IMG/VR virus record: IMGVR_UViG_3300043783_000031
Coordinates: 1-33,211 of that record
Reading direction: 5' to 3' (one strand)
Length of the DNA stretch: 33,211 bases
DNA from: a virus
This document shows, piece after piece, positions 10,474 through 28,728 of the stretch; within the stretch, counting starts at the first letter, position 1, and every line of letters starts with the position of its first letter. The translations under genes were made by a program, and so were the position numbers. Under the pieces are notes generated by a model that saw nothing but the letters and a program-made list of their open reading frames with translations, was not told where the DNA came from and ran no database searches.

Positions 10474-10630
10474 CTTGGGCCTCGTAAGCCGCCAGCGCTA
10501 CGCAGCGGCTGCACTGTTTGGCAACTTCAGGCAACGCCCTAAAATGCCACTTGGCGCCACCCACCATTTGGCATCGGCAAGGCATCGCCTTAAGGGCAGT
10601 ATAGAGCTGCGTTTCTAACTCACTTGGCAT
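10460..10630 (-). CDS. 56-residue Cys-rich protein
   Basis: A short frame between the polymerase and the VRR-NUC gene, overlapping each by 11-14 bases. It encodes MPSELETQLYTALKAMPCRC, then a segment with KWHFRALPEVAKQCSRCVAL. The CRC and CSRC cysteine pairs could bind zinc. It is helical at both ends. Its position between two DNA-processing enzymes suggests a replication accessory role, but nothing more is shown. Confidence 0.6.
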   Translation of the reverse strand: MPSELETQLYTALKAMPCRCQMVGGAKWHFRALPEVAKQCSRCVALAAYEAQDGQA

Positions 10631-12728
10631 AGCGGTAACTGACCTTTCCTTTTGCAGTTAAAGGCAGCCCATCGGCCCAAAGGCTAGATTCAACCAGCAA
10701 GCGGCTGAGTTCCTGATCGTTGTAGCAGTCTTCATCAGGGGGCTCCGTGATGGCTTCGTCATGCACCGAGAGAACCGGATTGTAGCCCGCGTCATCGGCC
10801 GCCAGCAATCCATCCATGAGGATATCCGCGCAGCCGCCTTGGCAGACATTCTCCGCGTCCTTTCCTGAATAGGTGGCAATGCGGCCCCATTGTTTAGTGT
10901 AGGGGTCTACTCCGATAAAGGAACGCTTTGAAAAATACCCATCGGTTTTGATTCGGGGTGCGGGGTAGTTGAGGTAGTGTCCGCTCGGGAGTTTGATTCG
11001 GAGCCAATTGCCAACTCTATCCACGGAAATTCGCTCACCGGCTCGGAATTTTTTACCAGGCGATCGGATCGCATCCTTAACTGCGTTGTCAAGCGCTTCC
11101 CAGAAAGCAACGATCTGGGGGTGAGCTGCGCGCCACATGAGTACCAGGGATTGGCAAACGACCCAGATTCGCTCGGTGAGCCCATAAGTACGCCGTTGCT
11201 TGATCGCCTTGAGCCACAGCCGTTGAGCCTCGCGCTTAACGTCGAGCGGGATTGTGGACCAGGCGCTAACTGCAAGGTCTTCGAGACGCAGGCCATATGT
11301 TTCTGCCATCGAGCAGAAGGCACCGACTCCACCATAGTATTGGAGTGCGAGTTCCATGACTTTGCCGACTTGCCGGCGCCAGTCGCCTTCGTCCGCGATG
11401 TCGTTGGGATCAATTCCAAAGGGTCTTGCATAGGCTACCTTGTAGAGATCCGGGCCTTCTTTCCGATCGTACGCTTCGTAGGCGGCAATTTTCCAGTCTT
11501 CACCTGCGATCCAGGCCATGAATCGGCCTTCGATGTTTGCCAAATCCGCCGACACCAGCCGCCGTTTGTGTCCCGCAATAATGAGTCCACGTAGCGCGCT
11601 CGATGCAAGTCCCAATATGTCGTCAGGAGCGTATGTATCGATTGTGCCTTCTTGGAAGCGTTTAATCGCATGTGCTATGTCCCATGGTTCGTGCTTAGGG
11701 CGAGGTAAATTTTGTGGCTGCAAAGTACGACCAGCCCAACGGCCAGTACGCATAGCACCGCAAAACACCAGTAGATTAAAAAGACGGCCTCCAACATTTT
11801 GATTAAGCACACGCTGGTACTTAGCCGTACTAGCTTTGGAAGCCTTCTGGCGAATGCGTAAAAGCTCTTTGATATGGTCGGGGAGCGATTCATCTTCTAG
11901 CCTCCGCTCTACGGTATCCGCCGTTAGATCTGGTAAGTCAACACCAAAGTCCGCCATGTAGGCCAAGAGCCGTTGCACTTGGGTAGTCGATTCCACGGAG
12001 ATGTCATCGCCCTCCAAACCATCGGCCTGGATCTTCGATAACTTGGCCGTACGCGCTTTGAGTTTATTCTTAGCGCGTGTGGTGGCTCCTACCGCGCCTT
12101 CCGCGAGCTTAATATCCATGGCGACGCCACGATGGTTCATGCGGTAATCCAAGCGCCAGATAGCCCACATGCGCGGTGTCGCGTTCCACTTCGGGATCTT
12201 GCGCCAAATGTAGCGCATCGCTTCGACATCCCGGCCACCGTAGCGTAGGAACTGCGCCCACTCTTTGGGGTGCGTCTCCGGGGTGTTGTAATTTCCGGCC
12301 TTGTTGGGTTTCCAGAAAACCTCGCCAATATCCTTACCCTTGAGCTTGGCGAATTGTTCGGGCACTTTGAAAATAGTGCAGAGTTTATCCAAGCCCCCAG
12401 GGAGCCCGTGCATTCGTGCGAGCGCGGCGGTGCAGCGCCATTTCGATTCTGGGATGTCGAGTGTCTTAGTTGCGTCAAGCATCGTCCGGTCAAATTCTGC
12501 TTGATGCGCGTACACTTCATCCGCGCGCTTGATTTGCTCTTGGAGTTTGAACAAGTGAAACTTGCGCTGAGCTGCGCTTTTCTTGGAAAGCATATCGATA
12601 ATGACAACTGGCCCGTTGTCGATCGCGTATTGCACCATCGTCATTTCGACGGCAGTCGCGTACTTGACGTTGCCGAGTCGAATCGGAATCCGCGATCTTG
12701 TCTCGCAGTCCAAAAACAATTTACGCAA
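10620..12728 (-). CDS. Family A DNA polymerase with 3'-5' exonuclease
   Basis: A 702-residue replicative polymerase. The exonuclease domain has FLDCET (Exo I, Asp7/Glu9), YAHQAEFDRTML (Exo II, Asp80) and YGGRDVEAM (Exo III). The polymerase domain has RTGRWAGR (327-334), motif A SADLANIEGR (393-402), motif B RQVGKVMELALQYYGG (452-467) and motif C SVHDE (654-658). All catalytic carboxylates are present, so it should be active with proofreading. There is no 5'-3' exonuclease domain. The frame starts with TTG, overlapping the upstream gene by 8 bases like other genes here. It works with the primase-helicase and single-strand-binding protein encoded upstream. Confidence 0.95.
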   Translation of the reverse strand: MRKLFLDCETRSRIPIRLGNVKYATAVEMTMVQYAIDNGPVVIIDMLSKKSAAQRKFHLFKLQEQIKRADEVYAHQAEFDRTMLDATKTLDIPESKWRCTAALARMHGLPGGLDKLCTIFKVPEQFAKLKGKDIGEVFWKPNKAGNYNTPETHPKEWAQFLRYGGRDVEAMRYIWRKIPKWNATPRMWAIWRLDYRMNHRGVAMDIKLAEGAVGATTRAKNKLKARTAKLSKIQADGLEGDDISVESTTQVQRLLAYMADFGVDLPDLTADTVERRLEDESLPDHIKELLRIRQKASKASTAKYQRVLNQNVGGRLFNLLVFCGAMRTGRWAGRTLQPQNLPRPKHEPWDIAHAIKRFQEGTIDTYAPDDILGLASSALRGLIIAGHKRRLVSADLANIEGRFMAWIAGEDWKIAAYEAYDRKEGPDLYKVAYARPFGIDPNDIADEGDWRRQVGKVMELALQYYGGVGAFCSMAETYGLRLEDLAVSAWSTIPLDVKREAQRLWLKAIKQRRTYGLTERIWVVCQSLVLMWRAAHPQIVAFWEALDNAVKDAIRSPGKKFRAGERISVDRVGNWLRIKLPSGHYLNYPAPRIKTDGYFSKRSFIGVDPYTKQWGRIATYSGKDAENVCQGGCADILMDGLLAADDAGYNPVLSVHDEAITEPPDEDCYNDQELSRLLVESSLWADGLPLTAKGKVSYRYAK

Positions 12729-13520: not shown

Positions 13521-14138
13521 TTAAGCCATCAATGGATCGGTTTCTTCGGCGCCTTCATCCGGCGCATCGATTTCATCGAACTCCGAATCATCGGCCGGCG
13601 GTCCGCCGCCGCCGAAGGCTTCTCCGTCGCGCAGCTTCTGCACGCCGCGCAGGCGGCAGCCTAGGCCATTATTGCCTTTGGTATAGGCATACGCCTCCAG
13701 GTTCACATTCACGAAGCAGCCGCTATAGAGCGCGCCTTCCTCTTCGGTCAGCGGCTCTTTCTGCTGGTTGAAGTAGTTCGGCCGCACCTTGGAGCGTGAG
13801 GAAATGAAGTAGGTTCCGGGAAACCCTTCGTAGTCGGGCTTGGTGTCACCATCCCGAAAGAAAATCTTCCCCGTCATCTTGATCGCTTTCAAAACCGCAG
13901 GGCCTTTCTTCTGCCATTTGTCGTTGGTGAGCTGTACGCAGATTTTCTCAAGCTCTGCATGCGCTGGCAGCTTCTTGCCGATGGGCTTGCCTTTATCGTC
14001 CTGGTATTGCAGCAACGAATCGGGGGTCAAAAGGTAGGTGCCGCTGAAATACTTGGTTTGGTCTAAGCTATCCGGGAAGGGTTCCGGGGTCCAGTAGCAC
14101 ATGAAGGATTGTCGAAGATCAAGCAGCTTGAATCTCAT
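13521..14138 (-). CDS. DUF2815 single-stranded DNA-binding protein
   Basis: A 205-residue protein of the DUF2815 family, T7 gp2.5-like single-strand-binding proteins. The AAGGAAC site before the ATG at 14138 excludes the longer frame. The N-terminal two-thirds contain family-like blocks such as FPDSLDQTKYFSGTYLLTPD and FPGTYFISSRSKVRPNYFN. The C-terminal 25 residues are acidic (PADDSEFDEIDAPDEGAEE), the usual docking tail of such proteins for polymerase and helicase. It lies directly downstream of the Cas4-like nuclease and a mini zinc protein, and upstream of the polymerase. It would coat single strands during replication and recombination. Confidence 0.88.
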   Translation of the reverse strand: MRFKLLDLRQSFMCYWTPEPFPDSLDQTKYFSGTYLLTPDSLLQYQDDKGKPIGKKLPAHAELEKICVQLTNDKWQKKGPAVLKAIKMTGKIFFRDGDTKPDYEGFPGTYFISSRSKVRPNYFNQQKEPLTEEEGALYSGCFVNVNLEAYAYTKGNNGLGCRLRGVQKLRDGEAFGGGGPPADDSEFDEIDAPDEGAEETDPLMA

Positions 14139-14311
14139 CGTTTTGTTCCTTTGCGAGTTGTGTTTATGAGTGCGCCTCGAAAGTACGTCTGGCGCGGGGT
14201 CAATGGTAGCATGCGCTTTTGGCGTTCCGCAACCTCGCCTTTGCCGCCACAAATGACGCAGATTCCGCGCGCCGTTTCGCCCGATCCTTCACACGTCAAA
14301 CACGGGGTCAT
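14135..14311 (-). CDS. 58-residue DnaJ-type zinc-finger protein
   Basis: A short frame fitting exactly between the nuclease and the single-strand-binding gene with ATGA overlaps on both sides. It begins MTPCLTCEGSGETARGICVI and continues CGGKGEV, giving two CxxCxGxG-like knuckles (C4-x2-C7-x-GSG and C18-x2-C21-GGKG) as in the DnaJ cysteine-rich domain. The rest is basic (TPRQTYFRGALINTTRKGTK). It probably binds one zinc ion. Its location argues for a role with the single-strand-binding protein. Confidence 0.7.
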   Translation of the reverse strand: MTPCLTCEGSGETARGICVICGGKGEVAERQKRMLPLTPRQTYFRGALINTTRKGTKR

Positions 14312-16564: not shown

Positions 16565-18769
16565 CTACGCCAATAAGTCAATATCGATATTATCGTCACC
16601 TCCGGTAATGTGATCCATCAACTGCTTGCCGGGTTGCCCGCGCCATTGATCGTGATTGCGAACAATAACGCCCCTAAAATGTTTATTCCCCACCCTAAAT
16701 TTGACGGCTTCCCCGAAAAACGGGGGTTTCGCCAATATTTGACCAATGCGGGTGACCGAAGATTTAGACACTGAATGCTTATGCGCATAGGCTTGAACTT
16801 CACTCACCACTACAATATCCCGTGCAAAGAACTCCGCTCTTTCCTCGAACATAATTTGTAGTAGCTCCGCATCGGGAGCCATCGACGCGGCTACCATCTC
16901 TTGCTTGGATTCGGTCATGATAGCTTCACCTGCTGGATCAAATCCGGTTAAATCAATACGCATAAAATAGTACCGCAGAACCGCCGCCGCTCTTGCCGTC
17001 AACAGAAATTCTCGATATATCCATTGGCGTTCGCTTGGTGTAAATCTGGGTTGTTTAAATTCATGAATACCCCAGCGCTCATCGTTATTATCAACCGCTG
17101 CCGCATCGTCATCATTACTAGATGCCGTGACGAAAAAATAGTTAGGAAATGTAAAACCTCGACCCCCCTTGGGGTGGAAAGGAATCATGTCATCGGCAAT
17201 ATAACCTTTGAGCTTGTTGGTGATCATATTGCGCTCACCGCGCGTACCGGCTCTGAACTCCATCAAATTAACATGCCACGCGCCTTGCAGATAATCGTTG
17301 AAATCACTTTTCAGCAGTGAATAATCTACATCGGTTGAATACTCGCGGCCCACCAATAGCGCGGGGATCGTTTTTATGATGGTTGATTTACCGTTGCGCT
17401 GGGTGCCGGACCAAAGCAGCGGTGCACTCTTAATTTTGACGCCAGGGTGTTGCACCACATGGGCGTAATACTGCTTGATCCATTTAATGTAGTTGTTATC
17501 GATCAAGCGCCCAAAAATCCATTCGATTTTTTCGTGTTCCAGCTTGGTGGGCTCCAACGGTTTTGGCAACCGATTACGATACCCGTTCGCGTAAGTATCA
17601 TCGCCCGCTTTAAACAGCGCACCTTCGCCCGGATGAAATCCCAACCCCTCAACTAATCGTTTTGTAGTTGAATTTTTAAGCACCCTGACTGGGTTCATTC
17701 GTCCACTCTTGCCTAGGGGCATTGTGGCCGTAAATAGGTGTTCTAGCGCTTGATCGCTGCCAATGATCTTGTGCCGTACGGTATCAAAATAACGTTCCGA
17801 GTTGACAACGTAGACTAATCGAGCTTCCAATTTGCCGATTGCGTCTTTACGCTGTTGGCGCAAATCCGCACGAACTTTGTTTTCATCTTTCGGCGCTTCG
17901 AGCGGTACTGCTTCAAACTCATCGGCTTGCGCCGGCAACTCGTTATCGAGCGTTGCAACGTGTTTGCCTTGCGTGCTTGAGAAGGAGACCCAATGCACGC
18001 GGCAGGTGGCCTCGCCGCCGTACACCGGCCGTCCTTGCTTGTCCTGGCGCGTGGCCTTGGCGCTCCAATGGTTCCAGAGTGCAAGCCCTTCCTCGGCACC
18101 TTGGGTCGCATGGTGGAGTTTCATGCCGACTTTGAGCCACGCGTCATACTCCATGTTGGGATCTTGGCCGTCCACCCAATGATTCAAGATGTCAAGCTCC
18201 ACGTTCGCGTGGCCGCCGTTGGTATGCTGCGGCACGGGATTTTCAGCCAACAGCTCTTGCCACGCGGCCTTGAGCGTTGCCGGGATCGGCGGCAAGCGAC
18301 TCCAGTCCCCCAGCAGCGGCTCATCGAACACCCATTCATAGGCTTTGCCCGTGCCAGGATGGATGCTAGGCGGCAAAACATCCTGGACCGACTTCTGCCC
18401 TGCCGTTGCGCAGCGCAGCTCCAGGCCGCTCCCTGGCGGTTTTACGGTACGTAATGGCGTCTTGAGGCGAAAGAGCAGCTTGGCACGGCCCACGCGCCCG
18501 GAGCTGATCTGGACCCGATCGCGAGCGGCCAGCAGCGCATCAAGGTCCACCCCGCGCTCTGCGAGCCATAGCCTGGCGCTCGGCAAGTCATCGACATCTA
18601 AGGCGCAGGTACCGCTCTGGACGTGCAGGAGCCCTGCGCCATCGATCCCGCCAGCAGTTTCAAGGTCAATCGGCCGCTCATTCCAACGGGCGTACTCTGG
18701 ACCTTTCTTGCCCTTAGGGATGATGCACAAGGCCCATCCAAAATGGACGTATTGCTGGAACGGCCCCAC
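16565..18769 (-). CDS. Primase-polymerase/helicase fusion
   Basis: A 734-residue replication protein. The N-terminal archaeo-eukaryotic-type primase-polymerase domain (about 1-175) has ALDVDD (Asp58/Asp60), SGRVGRAKLLFRL (90-102) and QDVLPPSIHPGTGKAYEW with the SIH motif (135-137). A PriCT-2-like domain follows (about 190-265; HWVDGQDPNMEYDAWLKVGM). The C-terminal superfamily 3-like helicase (VapE/D5-like) has Walker A GTQRNGKST (455-463), HVNLMEF (499-505) and FFVTASSNDD with DNNDERW (545-566). It should prime and unwind at the origin. The start is a GTG codon. A small Cro-like gene lies just upstream. All key residues seem present. Confidence 0.92.
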   Translation of the reverse strand: MGPFQQYVHFGWALCIIPKGKKGPEYARWNERPIDLETAGGIDGAGLLHVQSGTCALDVDDLPSARLWLAERGVDLDALLAARDRVQISSGRVGRAKLLFRLKTPLRTVKPPGSGLELRCATAGQKSVQDVLPPSIHPGTGKAYEWVFDEPLLGDWSRLPPIPATLKAAWQELLAENPVPQHTNGGHANVELDILNHWVDGQDPNMEYDAWLKVGMKLHHATQGAEEGLALWNHWSAKATRQDKQGRPVYGGEATCRVHWVSFSSTQGKHVATLDNELPAQADEFEAVPLEAPKDENKVRADLRQQRKDAIGKLEARLVYVVNSERYFDTVRHKIIGSDQALEHLFTATMPLGKSGRMNPVRVLKNSTTKRLVEGLGFHPGEGALFKAGDDTYANGYRNRLPKPLEPTKLEHEKIEWIFGRLIDNNYIKWIKQYYAHVVQHPGVKIKSAPLLWSGTQRNGKSTIIKTIPALLVGREYSTDVDYSLLKSDFNDYLQGAWHVNLMEFRAGTRGERNMITNKLKGYIADDMIPFHPKGGRGFTFPNYFFVTASSNDDDAAAVDNNDERWGIHEFKQPRFTPSERQWIYREFLLTARAAAVLRYYFMRIDLTGFDPAGEAIMTESKQEMVAASMAPDAELLQIMFEERAEFFARDIVVVSEVQAYAHKHSVSKSSVTRIGQILAKPPFFGEAVKFRVGNKHFRGVIVRNHDQWRGQPGKQLMDHITGGDDNIDIDLLA

Positions 18770-18784: not shown

Positions 18785-19036
18785 CTAGCGCTTCGCTAAC
18801 GGACAGATGGCGCAGATTTTGCACAAATCGCGCTGATCGAGATACAGAGCGCGCTTGCCCAAGGTGCGGCTAGCCTTAGCTATCCGCTGGCCCAAGGGTG
18901 GCTCGACGTTACGCCGGCCGGCGGCGATATGACGCAAATGGGGAACGGACGTGTCGGCGGCTTTGGCAAGCGCTCGCGCTTGATCAGGGGTTGCGATATC
19001 GAGCCATTTACGAATGGCATTGGGAGTGGGGGGCAT
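18785..19036 (-). CDS. Cro/C1-like helix-turn-helix protein
   Basis: An 83-residue protein with an AGGAG site 7 bases before its ATG. Residues 15-50 (TPDQARALAKAADTSVPHLR then HIAAGRRNVEPPLGQRI) form a helix-turn-helix of the XRE/Cro type, with the recognition helix near SVPHLRHIAAGR. The C-terminus holds CKICAICPLAKR, a possible metal knuckle not usual in Cro proteins. It precedes the primase-helicase by 15 bases and may regulate replication genes or mark the origin. It could equally be an antirepressor or host regulator. No cognate operator was identified with certainty. Confidence 0.78.
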   Translation of the reverse strand: MPPTPNAIRKWLDIATPDQARALAKAADTSVPHLRHIAAGRRNVEPPLGQRIAKASRTLGKRALYLDQRDLCKICAICPLAKR

Positions 19037-19071: not shown

Positions 19072-19473
19072 CTAGCGAAGCAGGGGGTCAACTTCGTCAA
19101 ACTCATCGATGCTTGCGGGCGCTTGATCGATCTTCGCCGCATGCTCCGCTTCTGTCTGCTTCGATAGATGCACGTAACCGCATTCGCACGTGTACGGATG
19201 CTGATTCCAGCGCTTGGCATCATGCGATGCATGGTCGCGGTTAGAGTATTTGCGTTTGTCTGGCGTCGGGCAAATCGGCGGGACGTATTCAGGTTCGGAT
19301 GTACGCTCCTGAGTATTCAGGATCGCATTGCGAATATTCATCAGTTCTGTCAGGAGCGGTCCTTCACTTAAGCGATACTCAAGATACGCCAATTCATCAG
19401 CAATGTGCGCTGCAGCTTCCGCGCTGATTGCTTCGTGACCCGCGCAAAAACAACATTTGACGAATTCGGTCAC
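19072..19473 (-). CDS. Zinc-binding hypothetical protein
   Basis: A 133-residue protein with a GTG start in a GTGA overlap. It has an N-terminal cysteine cluster (VKCCFCAGHEAISAEAAAHI; C7, C8, C10 and His13) and a C-terminal knuckle (PYTCECGYVHLSKQTEAEHA; C95, C97, His101, His110). The middle is helical (DELAYLEYRLSEGPLLTELM). It may bind two zinc ions. Ends EFDEVDPLLR. It directly follows a coiled-coil gene and may form a complex with it. Function unknown. Confidence 0.68.
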   Translation of the reverse strand: MTEFVKCCFCAGHEAISAEAAAHIADELAYLEYRLSEGPLLTELMNIRNAILNTQERTSEPEYVPPICPTPDKRKYSNRDHASHDAKRWNQHPYTCECGYVHLSKQTEAEHAAKIDQAPASIDEFDEVDPLLR

Positions 19474-20558: not shown

Positions 20559-20779
20559 GATCGTTTCCTCGGCCGATAAATGTAATCACCCTGCCAAACA
20601 ATGAAACCCGCGCGACGCAGCAATTCATCCAACGATCGCGGCGGCTGCGTGTTGAATGACAGCACCAATTCGCCGCCCCTGTTTGCCCACAGTTGAGAGC
20701 CATGCATGCTGACATAGGCAACGCTGGCGTAAGCGCCCTCGATAATGCGCAGCAACTTCATTAGTTTCTTGAGCGTCAT
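20555..20779 (-). CDS. Small hypothetical protein
   Basis: A 74-residue protein MTLKKLMKLLRIIEGAYASV followed by AYVSMHGSQLWANRGGELVL and RSLDELLRRAGFIVWQGDYI. An amphipathic basic N-terminal helix precedes a small alpha/beta domain. It overlaps the Ala-repeat gene and the next gene by ATGA. Function unknown. Confidence 0.65.
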   Translation of the reverse strand: MTLKKLMKLLRIIEGAYASVAYVSMHGSQLWANRGGELVLSFNTQPPRSLDELLRRAGFIVWQGDYIYRPRKRS

Positions 20780-21501
20780 GGCGTAACCCCCATCGATGCA
20801 AACTTGGCATCTACTGCGGCTTGTAGCCGCGCGCGTGATACTTCACGGTGCTTGCTTCTGGCACGGGCGGCGGCGGCGTCGGCGGCGGCGTAGGCGGCGG
20901 CGGCGTCGGCGTCGGCGGCGGCGTAGGCGTCGGCGGCGGCGTAGGCGTCGGCGGCGGCGTCGGCGGCGGCGTAGGCGGCGGCGGCGGCGGCGGCGGCGTA
21001 GGCGGCGGCGTAGGCGGCGGCGGCGTCGGCGTCGGCGGCGGCGGCGGCGGCGGCGTCGGCGGCGGCGTAGGCGTCGGCGGCGTAGGCGTCGGCGGCGGCG
21101 TCGGCGTAGGCGGCGTAGGCTTTTCGTGCTTCTACTCGAACGGTTTCGTCCCCTGTTTCAAGGTATTGCCTAACGATCGCAGGCGCTTTCCACAGATGAA
21201 TGACGCTTAAGGCCGATGCACGCGCATCGGCTCGAAGTAATTCTGTCGCATCGAATCGTGCGATGATTTTACGCTTGCGCGCGCATACCTTATCATCTTG
21301 CTCCAAGATTTCACCGTCAAGTTCAACCAGACAAAGCGTAGTTCCGGGCGCATAGCGAACAGCATCCGCCACATGCGCCGAAGCGTGCAGCCCAAAAGAG
21401 CACATTTTAAGTTTGCCCTTGACAGTCAACCATTCACCGTCTGCGGGAATTGGCGAACCATCGCGCAACGTTTTGCCGACGAAATGGTAATAACGTTTCA
21501 T
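20776..21501 (-). CDS. DUF7666-like protein with alanine repeat tail
   Basis: A 241-residue protein. Residues 1-125 look like a globular domain seen in many phage proteins: MCSFGLHASAHVADAVRYAP, TLCLVELDGEILEQDDKVCA and LWKAPAIVRQYLETGDETVR (the GLHAS and LWxAPxxVRxYLxTGD blocks; I believe DUF7666 but cannot check). Residues 127-214 are a low-complexity run of Ala with Tyr and Asp every 2-4 residues, mostly AAADAYAA-like units, predicted as one long helix. The tail (RARSKHREVSRARLQAAVDA) is basic. The repeat is encoded with almost pure GCC, TAC and GAC codons, pointing to expansion at the DNA level. Confidence 0.78.
   Translation of the reverse strand: MKRYYHFVGKTLRDGSPIPADGEWLTVKGKLKMCSFGLHASAHVADAVRYAPGTTLCLVELDGEILEQDDKVCARKRKIIARFDATELLRADARASALSVIHLWKAPAIVRQYLETGDETVRVEARKAYAAYADAAADAYAADAYAAADAAAAAAADADAAAAYAAAYAAAAAAAAYAAADAAADAYAAADAYAAADADAAAAYAAADAAAARARSKHREVSRARLQAAVDAKFASMGVTP
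20860..21123 (-). repeat. GCC/TAC/GAC trinucleotide repeat tract
   Basis: About 260 bases read as imperfect triplet and hexamer repeats: GGC, GTC and GTA-GGC units on the plus strand, GCC with GAC or TAC on the coding minus strand. Alanine is encoded by GCC throughout, in contrast with mixed alanine codons elsewhere in the gene. The tract encodes residues 127-214 of the alanine-repeat protein. Such purity is expected after recent slippage or unequal recombination. It is likely length-variable between isolates and hard to assemble from short reads. Confidence 0.9.
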
Positions 21502-22614: not shown

Positions 22615-22710
22615 CGAGACAACGCCAGCGTATAGAATGTCTCAATTTGTGTCAAGTATTAAATGTGTGAACTGTCTCACAATAATAGAGGATCGCGCTT
22701 ATCTGTCTCA
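22615..22710. promoter_or_regulatory. GTCTC/GAGAC operator-like motif cluster
   Basis: TGTCTCA occurs on the plus strand at 22638-22644, 22673-22679 and 22704-22710, and the inverted form CGAGACA at 22615-22621, spaced about 20-35 bases apart around the promoter at 22627-22655. Further GTCTC copies lie at 22937-22943, 23107-23113, 23161-23177 (two) and 23353-23359. This density around two promoter regions suggests binding sites for a regulator, possibly the adjacent helix-turn-helix protein. That pairing is inference. Confidence 0.5.
22627..22655 (-). promoter_or_regulatory. Sigma-70-like early promoter
   Basis: On the minus strand TTGACA (plus 22650-22655) is followed after 17 bases by TACGCT (plus 22627-22632), which keeps the key T, A and final T of the -10 element. 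It lies just upstream of the zinc-protein gene and is flanked by three GAGACA motifs, likely operator half-sites. Confidence 0.6.
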
Positions 22711-22862
22711 AGTTCGATCAATTTCATTGCTCGATAGAGCCTGGCGCGACTGCCACCAATGACCATGAGCGCATCGGCCGGCTTCAAGCCGCTGTCGATG
22801 AGCTGGTGAGCTTTCATGCCGTCGTGGCGGAGTTGATCTTGTTGAATTTTGCGGCGATGCAC
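22677..22862 (-). CDS. Small resolvase-type helix-turn-helix protein
   Basis: A 61-residue protein with a GTG start behind AGGAGA. Residues 17-48 (KAHQLIDSGLKPADALMVIG then GSRARLYRAM) match the helix-turn-helix of resolvase/Hin-type C-terminal domains (A-x-LI-x-G-x-x-x-A...GxSRxxLYR), without the catalytic domain. It is the first gene leftward of the intergenic control region and ends inside the GAGACA cluster. It is probably a DNA-binding early regulator or origin-binding protein. Confidence 0.72.
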   Translation of the reverse strand: MHRRKIQQDQLRHDGMKAHQLIDSGLKPADALMVIGGSRARLYRAMKLIELETDKRDPLLL

Positions 22863-22953: not shown

Positions 22954-23140
22954 GTTCCGACTGTTCCGACTGTTTCGACTCAATTGGACTCCAAAAGCTT
23001 AGGAGCATATTTATACACTACTATTCTATCTATTTTAGTAGGAACAGTAGGAACAGTAGGAACAGATAGTACTTTTTCCCGGCAAATAGTCGTGTTCCTA
23101 CTTCACCGTCTCAAGTTAATCAAGTAGGAACAGTAGCCAC
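22954..23140. repeat. 9-bp iteron-like repeats in both orientations
   Basis: GTTCCGACT lies at 22954-22962 and 22963-22971, with GTTTCGACT at 22972-22980. AGTAGGAAC, whose reverse complement GTTCCTACT differs by one base, lies at 23037-23045, 23046-23054, 23055-23063 and 23123-23131, with AGTAGCCAC at 23132-23140 and the inverted GTTCCTACT at 23094-23102. The arms face each other across about 56 AT-rich bases. Tandem and inverted 9-mers beside an AT-rich core are typical of an origin or a multi-site operator. Confidence 0.85.
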
Positions 23141-23296
23141 AGCTGCGCCAGGCGCATGGCCGTCTCATAGCGTCTCACTCCATCTCGCATGCTGCAGCGC
23201 AAGGTTGTTGCCGCTAGCTGCGGGAGGGTTTTTCTTAGAAGTGAGGGAAGGCCCTGGGGAGCCCCTTTTCAGGAGGTAGGCTTCTGGCCGCGAGCG

Positions 23297-23316
23297 GGCG
23301 CTTTGTTGCAAGCGCC
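23297..23316 (+). other. Hairpin upstream of the packaging operon
   Basis: GGCGCTT (23297-23303) and AAGCGCC (23310-23316) form a 7-bp stem with loop TGTTGC. It is not followed by T residues, so it is unlikely to be a terminator. It might be a DNA-binding site, an attenuator or a packaging-recognition element just before the terminase genes. Confidence 0.35.
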
Positions 23317-23407
23317 TACAGCAAACATTTGAGGCAGGGATTCATCTCGTTTTGTCTCGTAATCTAGGGCTTGCCGCCGGCATCCCTTTTCCGGTACCTT
23401 TGCGTCC

Positions 23408-23776
23408 ATGGCAAACGAAGACGACGCCGACATCTCTGCATTAGCCCGCTCCCACGCGCCCCGGGCGATCGAACTTTTAGCAGGCATCATGGAAGACGCC
23501 ATGGAGGACAAGGATCAGATCCGCGCGGCCGAGGCAATCCTGGATCGGGGGTACGGCAAGCCTTCTCAGGCGATCATCGCGATTCCCGCAACCCGCCGCC
23601 AGGCCCTAGCCGCCGCTGCGTTCAACGATGAGCAACTGGTGGCGATCATTGAGCGCAAGCAACTGCCGCGCATCGGCGCACCGCAACCCCTCGTCACCAT
23701 TGGCGCCAAGCCACGCGGGTTCTACACCTCGCATGGTCCGGCGGACGCGCCCGAAATCGATCCACTGCTCTTGTGA
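23408..23776 (+). CDS. Putative small terminase subunit
   Basis: A 122-residue protein placed directly before the terminase ATPase gene with a GTGA overlap. It starts MANEDDADISALARSHAPRA and has a helical block KDQIRAAEAILDRGYGKPSQ (about 35-55), a motif frequent in phage DNA-packaging-associated and helix-turn-helix-adjacent proteins. The C-terminus (EIDPLLL) is acidic/hydrophobic. Position and size support the DNA-recognition subunit of terminase. No strong ribosome binding site is seen before the ATG, so the start is uncertain. Identification rests mostly on context. Confidence 0.6.
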   Translation: MANEDDADISALARSHAPRAIELLAGIMEDAMEDKDQIRAAEAILDRGYGKPSQAIIAIPATRRQALAAAAFNDEQLVAIIERKQLPRIGAPQPLVTIGAKPRGFYTSHGPADAPEIDPLLL

Positions 23777-26544: not shown

Positions 26545-28728
26545 ATGTCGGTAGAAGGCGGTTCAACCAGCTACGCAGGCGGCACCGCTGGCATCTTGAA
26601 AGACCCGCGCCAGGATGGCGAGGGTAAAGACGGCGTTGATCAGGACGAGCCGGATTCCAAGGAAGATGAGGAGCAAGAGCTACTTCTGGTCGAGAAGAAA
26701 TGGCGGGAATATGACGATGCGCGCAAGTTCGATGAGAATTTCCGCAAGCAAGTCGCCATCGATCGCAAGTACGCGGCCGGCACTTCCGATCTCTCCTGGG
26801 CGGTTACGACCAATCTCATCGGCGCCTTCATCGATATATTGGTCGCGCTCCTTTATGCTCGCAATCCTGATGTTTCGGTGCGCAAAGCGCCGCAGGTAGA
26901 TGAGTCGAACACCTATCAGATTCAAACATTCGCACGTACGCTCGAAATCGTCATCTCTAGTTTGTGGAAGAAAGGCAATCTCAAGAAACCCGCGCGCAAG
27001 GGCGTGCGCTCGGTACTCTCGAATGCCGAAGGCTGGTTCAAGGCGACGATGGTCTCCGAGAAGCGCCCACAACCGGAAGTTGAACGCGCGCTCAACGATG
27101 CGCAGGAGACTCATGCACGCATCGTGGCGCAGCAGAAGCTACTCGAAGATCCGGGCGATCGAGATCCTGAAACGCTGGAAGCCGAGAAGGCCGAGAAGGA
27201 AGCGTTGATCGAGGAACTTCAAGAAAAGTTGGAACTCGCCGTCAACAAGATGTTCGTCATCGACTACGTCGAGACGGAGAACATTCAGGTCTCAACCGAC
27301 ATCAACTGCATCGAGAATTATACCGATGCCGATTGGATTGCAAACGAACTCTATCTGACCAAAGACGATGCCCTGTCGCGCTTCCCACGGCTCAAACCCG
27401 AAGACATCAAATCGGCCAAGTCCTATTTTCAACGGGCGCCGAAGGAACTCACGACACGCGAAACGGACAATATCTTGCCGCAAGGCACGATGACGGCAGA
27501 AAGCGCGCAGGCGTACACGACGCAAACGAGCGCGACCGAATCGCCGATGTTTTTGCGCGTAGTTGAGATATGGGATCGGCGCGATAAGCAAATTCGCACA
27601 CTCATCGACGGGGTGAAGAAATGGGCCAAAGAACCATATCCGCCGCCCTATCCAACGAGCCGGTTTTTCCCTTACTTCTACTTCGCCTTCTACGAAGTGG
27701 ATGGCCAGCGGCACGCGCAGAGTCTTGCGTGGAGGCTGTACAAGTTGCAAGACGAGTACTCAAGCTCCCGCAGCAATTTCAGGCTCACGCGCGAGCGCAG
27801 CATCCCTGGGGTGCTATTCAACGCGACGATGCTGGACGAGGTTGAAGCCAAGAAACTGCAAGAATCGAAATCCCAAGAGTACACTGCGCTGCGTCCGAGC
27901 GATCCGGCAACGCCAATCGGCAATATGTTTGCGGCCAAGCCGGTGGCTGCGATCGATATGAGGCTCTATGATCCTACACTTATCCTCAACGATATGGAGC
28001 GCATCTCTGGTGTGCAGGAAGCACTCTCGGCGGCAATCAACTCTCCAGGTAATCCGAAAACTGCTACTGAGGCAAACATTCAGCAGTCCGGAACACAAGC
28101 TAGGACGACTTCTGACCGGGATAATCTCGAAGCCATGCTCACTGAGTTGGCAGAGTACACGGCACAGCAAGCGCTACAATGCCTTGAGGTTCGAGACGTT
28201 CAGCGGCTGGCGGGTCCGAAAGCATTTTGGCCCGAAAATATGGACATCGAGGATTTGTTCACCCTGGTAGAGATCACGATCGAAGCGGGCTCTACCGGCA
28301 AGCCACGTCAAGCGACCGATATGCAGGCGTGGGGGACGATTCTCCCGCTGATCCAAAAATCCTTGCAGGAAATCGAGCAAGCGTTTGCGACCGGCAACAC
28401 GCCAATGGCGAATGCGCTGATCGAGCTGGTGAAAGAAACCATGCTGCGCTTGGGCGATGAATCGGATGTCGAGCGCTTCATCCCGCGCCAGCCGCCGCCA
28501 GGAAGCCCCGGCGCGGGAGGGCCGCCGCCCCCCGTCATGCCGCAGGTATCCATCAGCCTTAAAGGGGAAATCAGCCCGCAGGCCGCCGCAGAACTCGCGC
28601 AGCCGGCGATCAATCGCGATACACCCCCGCCACCCGCACCCCCCGCTCCTGGCAGCCAATCGGCTCCAGGTCAAACACCACCGTCATCCCCGGCTGGAGT
28701 ATCCGTGCCGCCCGGAGCGGGGCCTTGA
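26545..28728 (+). CDS. Portal protein
   Basis: A 727-residue portal, the dodecameric ring at the packaging vertex. An acidic N-terminus (about 1-50) precedes a helical stretch (LVEKKWREYDDARKFDENFR), a long coiled stem or clip region (about 170-230; LEAEKAEKEALIEELQEKLE), and a central region with FFPYFYFAFYEVDG and WRLYKLQDEYSSSRSNFRLT (about 370-415) characteristic of large podovirus-type portals. The C-terminal 60 residues are Pro-rich and probably flexible. Its size exceeds most siphovirus portals and fits podoviruses. It follows terminase and precedes the scaffold as expected. Confidence 0.85.
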   Translation: MSVEGGSTSYAGGTAGILKDPRQDGEGKDGVDQDEPDSKEDEEQELLLVEKKWREYDDARKFDENFRKQVAIDRKYAAGTSDLSWAVTTNLIGAFIDILVALLYARNPDVSVRKAPQVDESNTYQIQTFARTLEIVISSLWKKGNLKKPARKGVRSVLSNAEGWFKATMVSEKRPQPEVERALNDAQETHARIVAQQKLLEDPGDRDPETLEAEKAEKEALIEELQEKLELAVNKMFVIDYVETENIQVSTDINCIENYTDADWIANELYLTKDDALSRFPRLKPEDIKSAKSYFQRAPKELTTRETDNILPQGTMTAESAQAYTTQTSATESPMFLRVVEIWDRRDKQIRTLIDGVKKWAKEPYPPPYPTSRFFPYFYFAFYEVDGQRHAQSLAWRLYKLQDEYSSSRSNFRLTRERSIPGVLFNATMLDEVEAKKLQESKSQEYTALRPSDPATPIGNMFAAKPVAAIDMRLYDPTLILNDMERISGVQEALSAAINSPGNPKTATEANIQQSGTQARTTSDRDNLEAMLTELAEYTAQQALQCLEVRDVQRLAGPKAFWPENMDIEDLFTLVEITIEAGSTGKPRQATDMQAWGTILPLIQKSLQEIEQAFATGNTPMANALIELVKETMLRLGDESDVERFIPRQPPPGSPGAGGPPPPVMPQVSISLKGEISPQAAAELAQPAINRDTPPPPAPPAPGSQSAPGQTPPSSPAGVSVPPGAGP

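Follow-up and report, generated by a model that had tools for sequence, protein, structure and literature searches.

Experimentally tested PICI origins consist of two iteron sets placed around an AT-rich region, and their authors described this organisation as shared by no other known bacterial replicon (PMC6092414). SaPI Rep and SCCmec Cch2 are reported to recognise their iterons through C-terminal domains (PMC7581432). The origin of P4 is located between divergent operons, next to a small ORF for a DNA-binding protein; its 8-bp iterons are ordered <<< > <<, and another iteron region, crr, adjoins the initiator gene. A further pattern is seen with the NrS-1 primase-polymerase (6k9c, 6k9e), for which two 8-nt recognition sites, one per strand, are reported and for which the accessible portions of the reports mention no iteron array (PMC7102993, PMC8718748).

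Region 22954-23140 of the DNA analysed here (the window, meaning the whole 33,211 b of the linear phage fragment recorded as IMGVR_UViG_3300043783_000031) shares features with each of these systems. Like the PICI/SaPI origins, it has two iteron sets flanking an AT-rich region in a genome encoding a primase/helicase-type initiator (PMC6092414). In contrast to the PICI origin, which lies immediately 3' of the initiator gene, the array is located more than 4 kb from that gene and between divergent operons, and the phage is no satellite, as its own terminase large subunit (TerL) and portal are present. As in P4, the operons (here early and late) diverge at the array and the order of the iterons is similar, and both initiators contain DUF5906 (48.1 bits in the window primase, 38.2 bits in P4 alpha). 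However, P4 alpha has a Zn-ribbon/Toprim primase and a Pox_D5 C-terminus with no BLASTP similarity to the window primase, the P4 unit is GGTGAACA compared to GTTCCKACT in the window, and the window has no equivalent of crr. One relative of the phage (L022) has 17 nt (CTGTTCACACTGTTCAC) in common with P4 crr, and its unit matches crr. In the SCCmec origin, an initiator helicase (Cch2) binds short direct repeats with its C-terminal domain (PMC7581432), as is proposed here. The SCCmec repeats are 5-bp AAGTG iterons adjoining the helicase gene, and the primase is separate, which differs from the window. The NrS-1 enzyme is the closest solved relative of the window primase. By analogy, the array appears to work like the PICI and P4 origins, and we file it as a member of neither.

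The left array (22954-22980, plus strand) consists of two copies of GTTCCGACT (22954-22962 and 22963-22971) followed by GTTTCGACT, which has one mismatch (22972-22980). It faces a right array (23037-23063, minus strand) of three AGTAGGAAC units (23037-23045, 23046-23054 and 23055-23063), reading GTTCCTACT on the minus strand, that is the best kept array in the relatives. Beyond it lie a single opposite iteron, GTTCCTACT (23094-23102, plus strand), and an outer iteron, AGTAGGAAC (23123-23131), followed by a degenerate copy, AGTAGCCAC (23132-23140; both within 23123-23140, minus strand). The facing tandem 9-bp arrays and the further inverted pair claimed in a preliminary description of this DNA were thus both recovered, with every unit in its place. 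The pattern GTTCCNACT occurred eight times in the window compared to 0.77 expected, a count reached in none of 100 shuffles, and seven of the eight sites were packed into 178 bp in this region. Scattering of the 9-mers elsewhere in the genome, which the preliminary description had named as evidence against its own reading, was not observed, the sole outside copy being at 27227. One 8-mer was present five times within 200 bp, whereas 200 simulated 33-kb sequences gave a maximum of three. This density comparison left out the alanine-repeat gene 20776-21501 because coding repeats bring its count to 12. The array is far above chance. No paper on the tandem unit was retrieved from the literature library searched. 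The excluded gene encodes an alanine-rich repeat protein whose repeats dominate a scan for repeated 7-mers; dense short repeats are also seen at the ends of other contigs.

The 56 bp between the facing arrays (22981-23036; 70% AT) form a candidate unwinding element, in line with the AT-rich core noted earlier, and contain the least stable DNA of the window. The 60-bp stretch of lowest stability in the whole record begins at 23009, and the least stable 60-bp stretches as a group begin at 22982-23018. The combination that generally marks iteron origins, direct repeats adjoining AT-rich DNA that melts easily, was present. The region is flanked by a leftward ORF for a 61-aa HTH-like protein without a family hit (HTH61; 22677-22862) and by the rightward gene of the terminase small subunit (TerS; 23408-23776), and these orientations agree with the proposed position at the divergence of early and late operons beside a small HTH gene. 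The GC skew minimum of the window (20,814) is compatible with an origin, although it does not count as independent evidence and was set aside, since the operons diverge at the same place and skew is confounded with gene orientation.

A search with the terminase large subunit retrieved 30 related contigs. Two relatives have terminal repeats and are probably complete at about 47 kb. The family used for array comparison had 15 members (the window phage and 14 relatives). Conservation in relatives, suggested earlier as a check, was found in an altered form: 14 relatives had an array at the matching place, often of another unit. These units included GTGCCTCTT in G065, TGTCCCATT in L004, GTTCATACT in L022, TTGTAAC in L017, a CGGTAG-type unit in L020 and a CGACAA-type unit in L025. 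The gene order of HTH61, array region and terminase small subunit, or its mirror image, was present in eight loci, and in the five genomes measured the nearest copy of opposite orientation lay 33-37 nt beyond the right array. Seven genomes selected for clearly different right-array units contained 29 copies of their own unit outside the right array (4.1 per region) compared to 0.12 per region for foreign units, and this own-unit total was reached by none of 1,854 derangements. Because the choice of seven differing genomes favours the idea, the count was redone on all 15 members, with each unit taken solely from the right array. Own-unit copies exceeded the foreign mean in 14 of the 15, with a weaker effect than in the seven selected genomes; L006 had no own-unit copies outside the right array, and L011, L012 and G060 were weak with one or two only. 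In L006 (TerL 99% identical) the left array (TGTGCTGAC/TGTGCTGAT) mismatches the right (AATAAGAAC), and among the relatives in general the left array was less well kept than the right. Judging from these sequences, the layout is mostly retained across related phages whereas the sequence of the repeat is replaced, and this turnover may reflect co-evolution of the iteron and the predicted winged helix of its proposed binder.

Arrays of the same pattern were also found in unrelated phages and prophages. A tandem pattern scan returned 53 contigs in IMG/VR and 66 in GTDB genomes; in 28 and 36 of these, respectively, copies of both orientations were present within 300 bp. Many of the one-directional matches are probably coding, since GTT CCN ACT and GTT ACN CCT both form codon series in which N is the wobble base. 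An initial scan covered large ORFs near about 20 loci, and its results were known when the distance limits of the systematic comparison were set. The near set comprised ORFs of at least 300 aa within 600 bp of two-directional GTTCCNACT arrays, 55 picked by rule and one added by hand (L073:2276-3955, already known to contain DUF5906, where the rule had chosen a longer opposite-strand ORF). Among these 56, 27 matched DUF927, eight VapE and three DUF5906, some proteins matching both VapE and DUF5906, so that initiator helicases made up about 36 of 56 (L073 counted once) or 35 of 55 without L073. The distant set (>2.5 kb; 81 ORFs, scanned as a lot of 73 and then eight initially left out) had one DUF927 and at most one each of VapE and DUF5906. 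Fisher's exact test of 35/55 against the worst case of 3/81 gave p = 6e-15, a value that overstates independence because several contigs are near-duplicates.

As controls, scans were run with two scrambled versions of the unit pattern. The first, CTATCNGCT, matched a single contig, with two tandem copies, and serves as the only control. The second, GTTACNCCT, matched 93 contigs, of which 30 had copies in opposite orientations. Its arrays adjoined the same initiator families (DUF927, VapE, DUF5906 and DUF3987 proteins), so this scramble could not serve as a negative control and instead shows GTTCCNACT to be one among several units of this kind. There is about an even chance that these arrays represent a broad class of phage origin, in which facing TGTTNC-type iterons of 9-bp pitch surround a melting core, several initiator-helicase families (DUF5906, VapE, DUF927, DUF3987) take part in full-size phages as well as satellites, and the unit changes rapidly, matched by changes in the winged helix of the initiator.

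The proposed iteron-binding initiator of the window phage is a primase-helicase (16565-18769, minus strand) with Prim-Pol, PriCT_2 and DUF5906 regions and a predicted C-terminal winged helix at about aa 640-723. An AlphaFold2 model of the C-terminal 135 residues gave this winged helix with a pLDDT of mostly 77-88 over residues 31-120; the full-length model was poor and not usable. Structural matches to the C-terminal model were all weak, the best being the C-terminal region of the NrS-1 primase (E 0.05) and winged-helix regulators, and the whole-protein sequence profile also finds NrS-1. Across nine homologues, variation was greater in the C-terminus than in the AAA+ core. The initiator gene lies more than 4 kb from the array, in contrast to most of the unrelated phages, and neither a GTTCCNACT copy nor a second array was present near the primase gene (16.5-19 kb) in the window. 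Two other replication proteins encoded on the minus strand are an Enc34/gp2.5-like ssDNA-binding protein (SSB; 13521-14252), a likely fork partner, and a family-A DNA polymerase (10620-12728; below Pfam's cut-off), likely the elongating enzyme. An acidic C-terminal tail of DxDPLL/DIDLL type was observed in five proteins (TerS, HTH61, the SSB, the primase and a 133-aa ORF at 19072-19473); it also ends 1 to 6 ORFs per relative compared to 0 to 0.2% at internal positions, with a pattern that was written after these tails had been seen, and may be a docking tag common to these proteins, comparable to the SSB C-tip.

The preliminary description had put forward as binders HTH61, a second HTH-like protein of 83 aa upstream of the primase (HTH83; 18785-19036, minus strand) and the primase-helicase. 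No homologue of HTH61 or HTH83 was detected in G060 and G065, both of which have the array (that of G065 with a different unit); these two more distant family members, with primases about 49% identical, keep the primase, polymerase, SSB, DUF2800 and SNF2 proteins. The primase-helicase is favoured over both HTH proteins for this reason, and on the structural prediction it is likely to bind the iterons through its C-terminal winged helix. The same genomes bear on the idea that the repeats are operators bound by HTH61 or HTH83 to control the divergent operons. The array does lie between these operons and adjoins an HTH-like gene, and promoter-like sites are present in the region. However, the array persists where neither regulator is detected (though an unrelated HTH protein could substitute), the equivalent arrays of unrelated phages track initiator helicases, and the core is the least stable DNA of the window. 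A different repeat, GTCTC, accompanies HTH61 across the relatives and is a better operator candidate, clustering round the array in HTH61-bearing relatives and being absent or rare where HTH61 is missing. In the window, rightward GTCTC sites occur at 22639, 22674, 22705, 22938, 23108, 23162, 23172 and 23354, some paired 10 nt apart. We consider an operator function of the iterons unlikely. It is less probable still that they are TerS binding sites near cos or pac. The TerS gene (plus strand, the first of the rightward genes, assigned by weak PHROG matches and its position before TerL) starts about 270 bp to the right, and a strongly conserved block lies in between. Against this, G060 and G065 keep the array without a detected homologue of this small subunit and with other genes separating array and TerL, arrays of other phages adjoin replication genes, and the block fits a packaging site better than the iterons do. 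Iterons may act in copy control besides initiation, and a phage maintained as a plasmid could use them for partition or incompatibility; no partition gene was recognised among the window proteins scanned, partition families were not prominent beside arrays elsewhere, and we regard this reading as very improbable.

The block in question (23238-23325, plus strand; core GCGAGCGGGCGCTTTGTTGCAAGCGCC at 23290-23316) was present on the right-hand side of the array in every one of the 15 family members, with a near-invariant GCGAnCGGGnGCTTnGTTGC, and was kept even where this TerS is not adjacent. It is a candidate second origin element or packaging site. An RNA or cruciform structure in the block near TerS was unsupported, as the hairpin was not kept across relatives, and Rfam gave no match up to threshold. 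Four contigs (L013, L015, L021, L027) begin 52-379 nt left of the block, possibly owing to genome ends or repeats nearby. A shorter conserved box, TTTTTCCCGGCAAATAG (23073-23089, plus strand), follows the right array in about ten of the 15 members, and our guess is that it is a priming start site. Its resemblance to a stretch of the P4 origin was not significant by weight-matrix score, with 26 of 150 random P4 windows scoring as high.

Overall, 22954-23140 is most probably the replication origin of the phage. This reading is supported by an array kept in relatives while its unit changes, by the arrays of unrelated phages beside initiator helicases, and by the least stable core combined with the layout of PICI origins (PMC6092414). 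We give the whole explanation, an origin with the primase-helicase as its inferred iteron-binding initiator, a probability of roughly 0.8. The Prim-Pol/DUF5906 primase-helicase would bind the iterons via its C-terminal winged helix, assemble on the arrays and melt the AT core. It would then load as helicase on the opened strands and prime DNA, with extension from the origin falling to the family-A polymerase and the ssDNA-binding protein of the phage. A family of uncultured phages thereby gains an origin and an initiator that can be tested, and the satellite-type origin layout would extend to autonomous, full-size tailed phages. The differing arrays, together with their primases, make up a natural series that may be used for studying how origin specificity changes.
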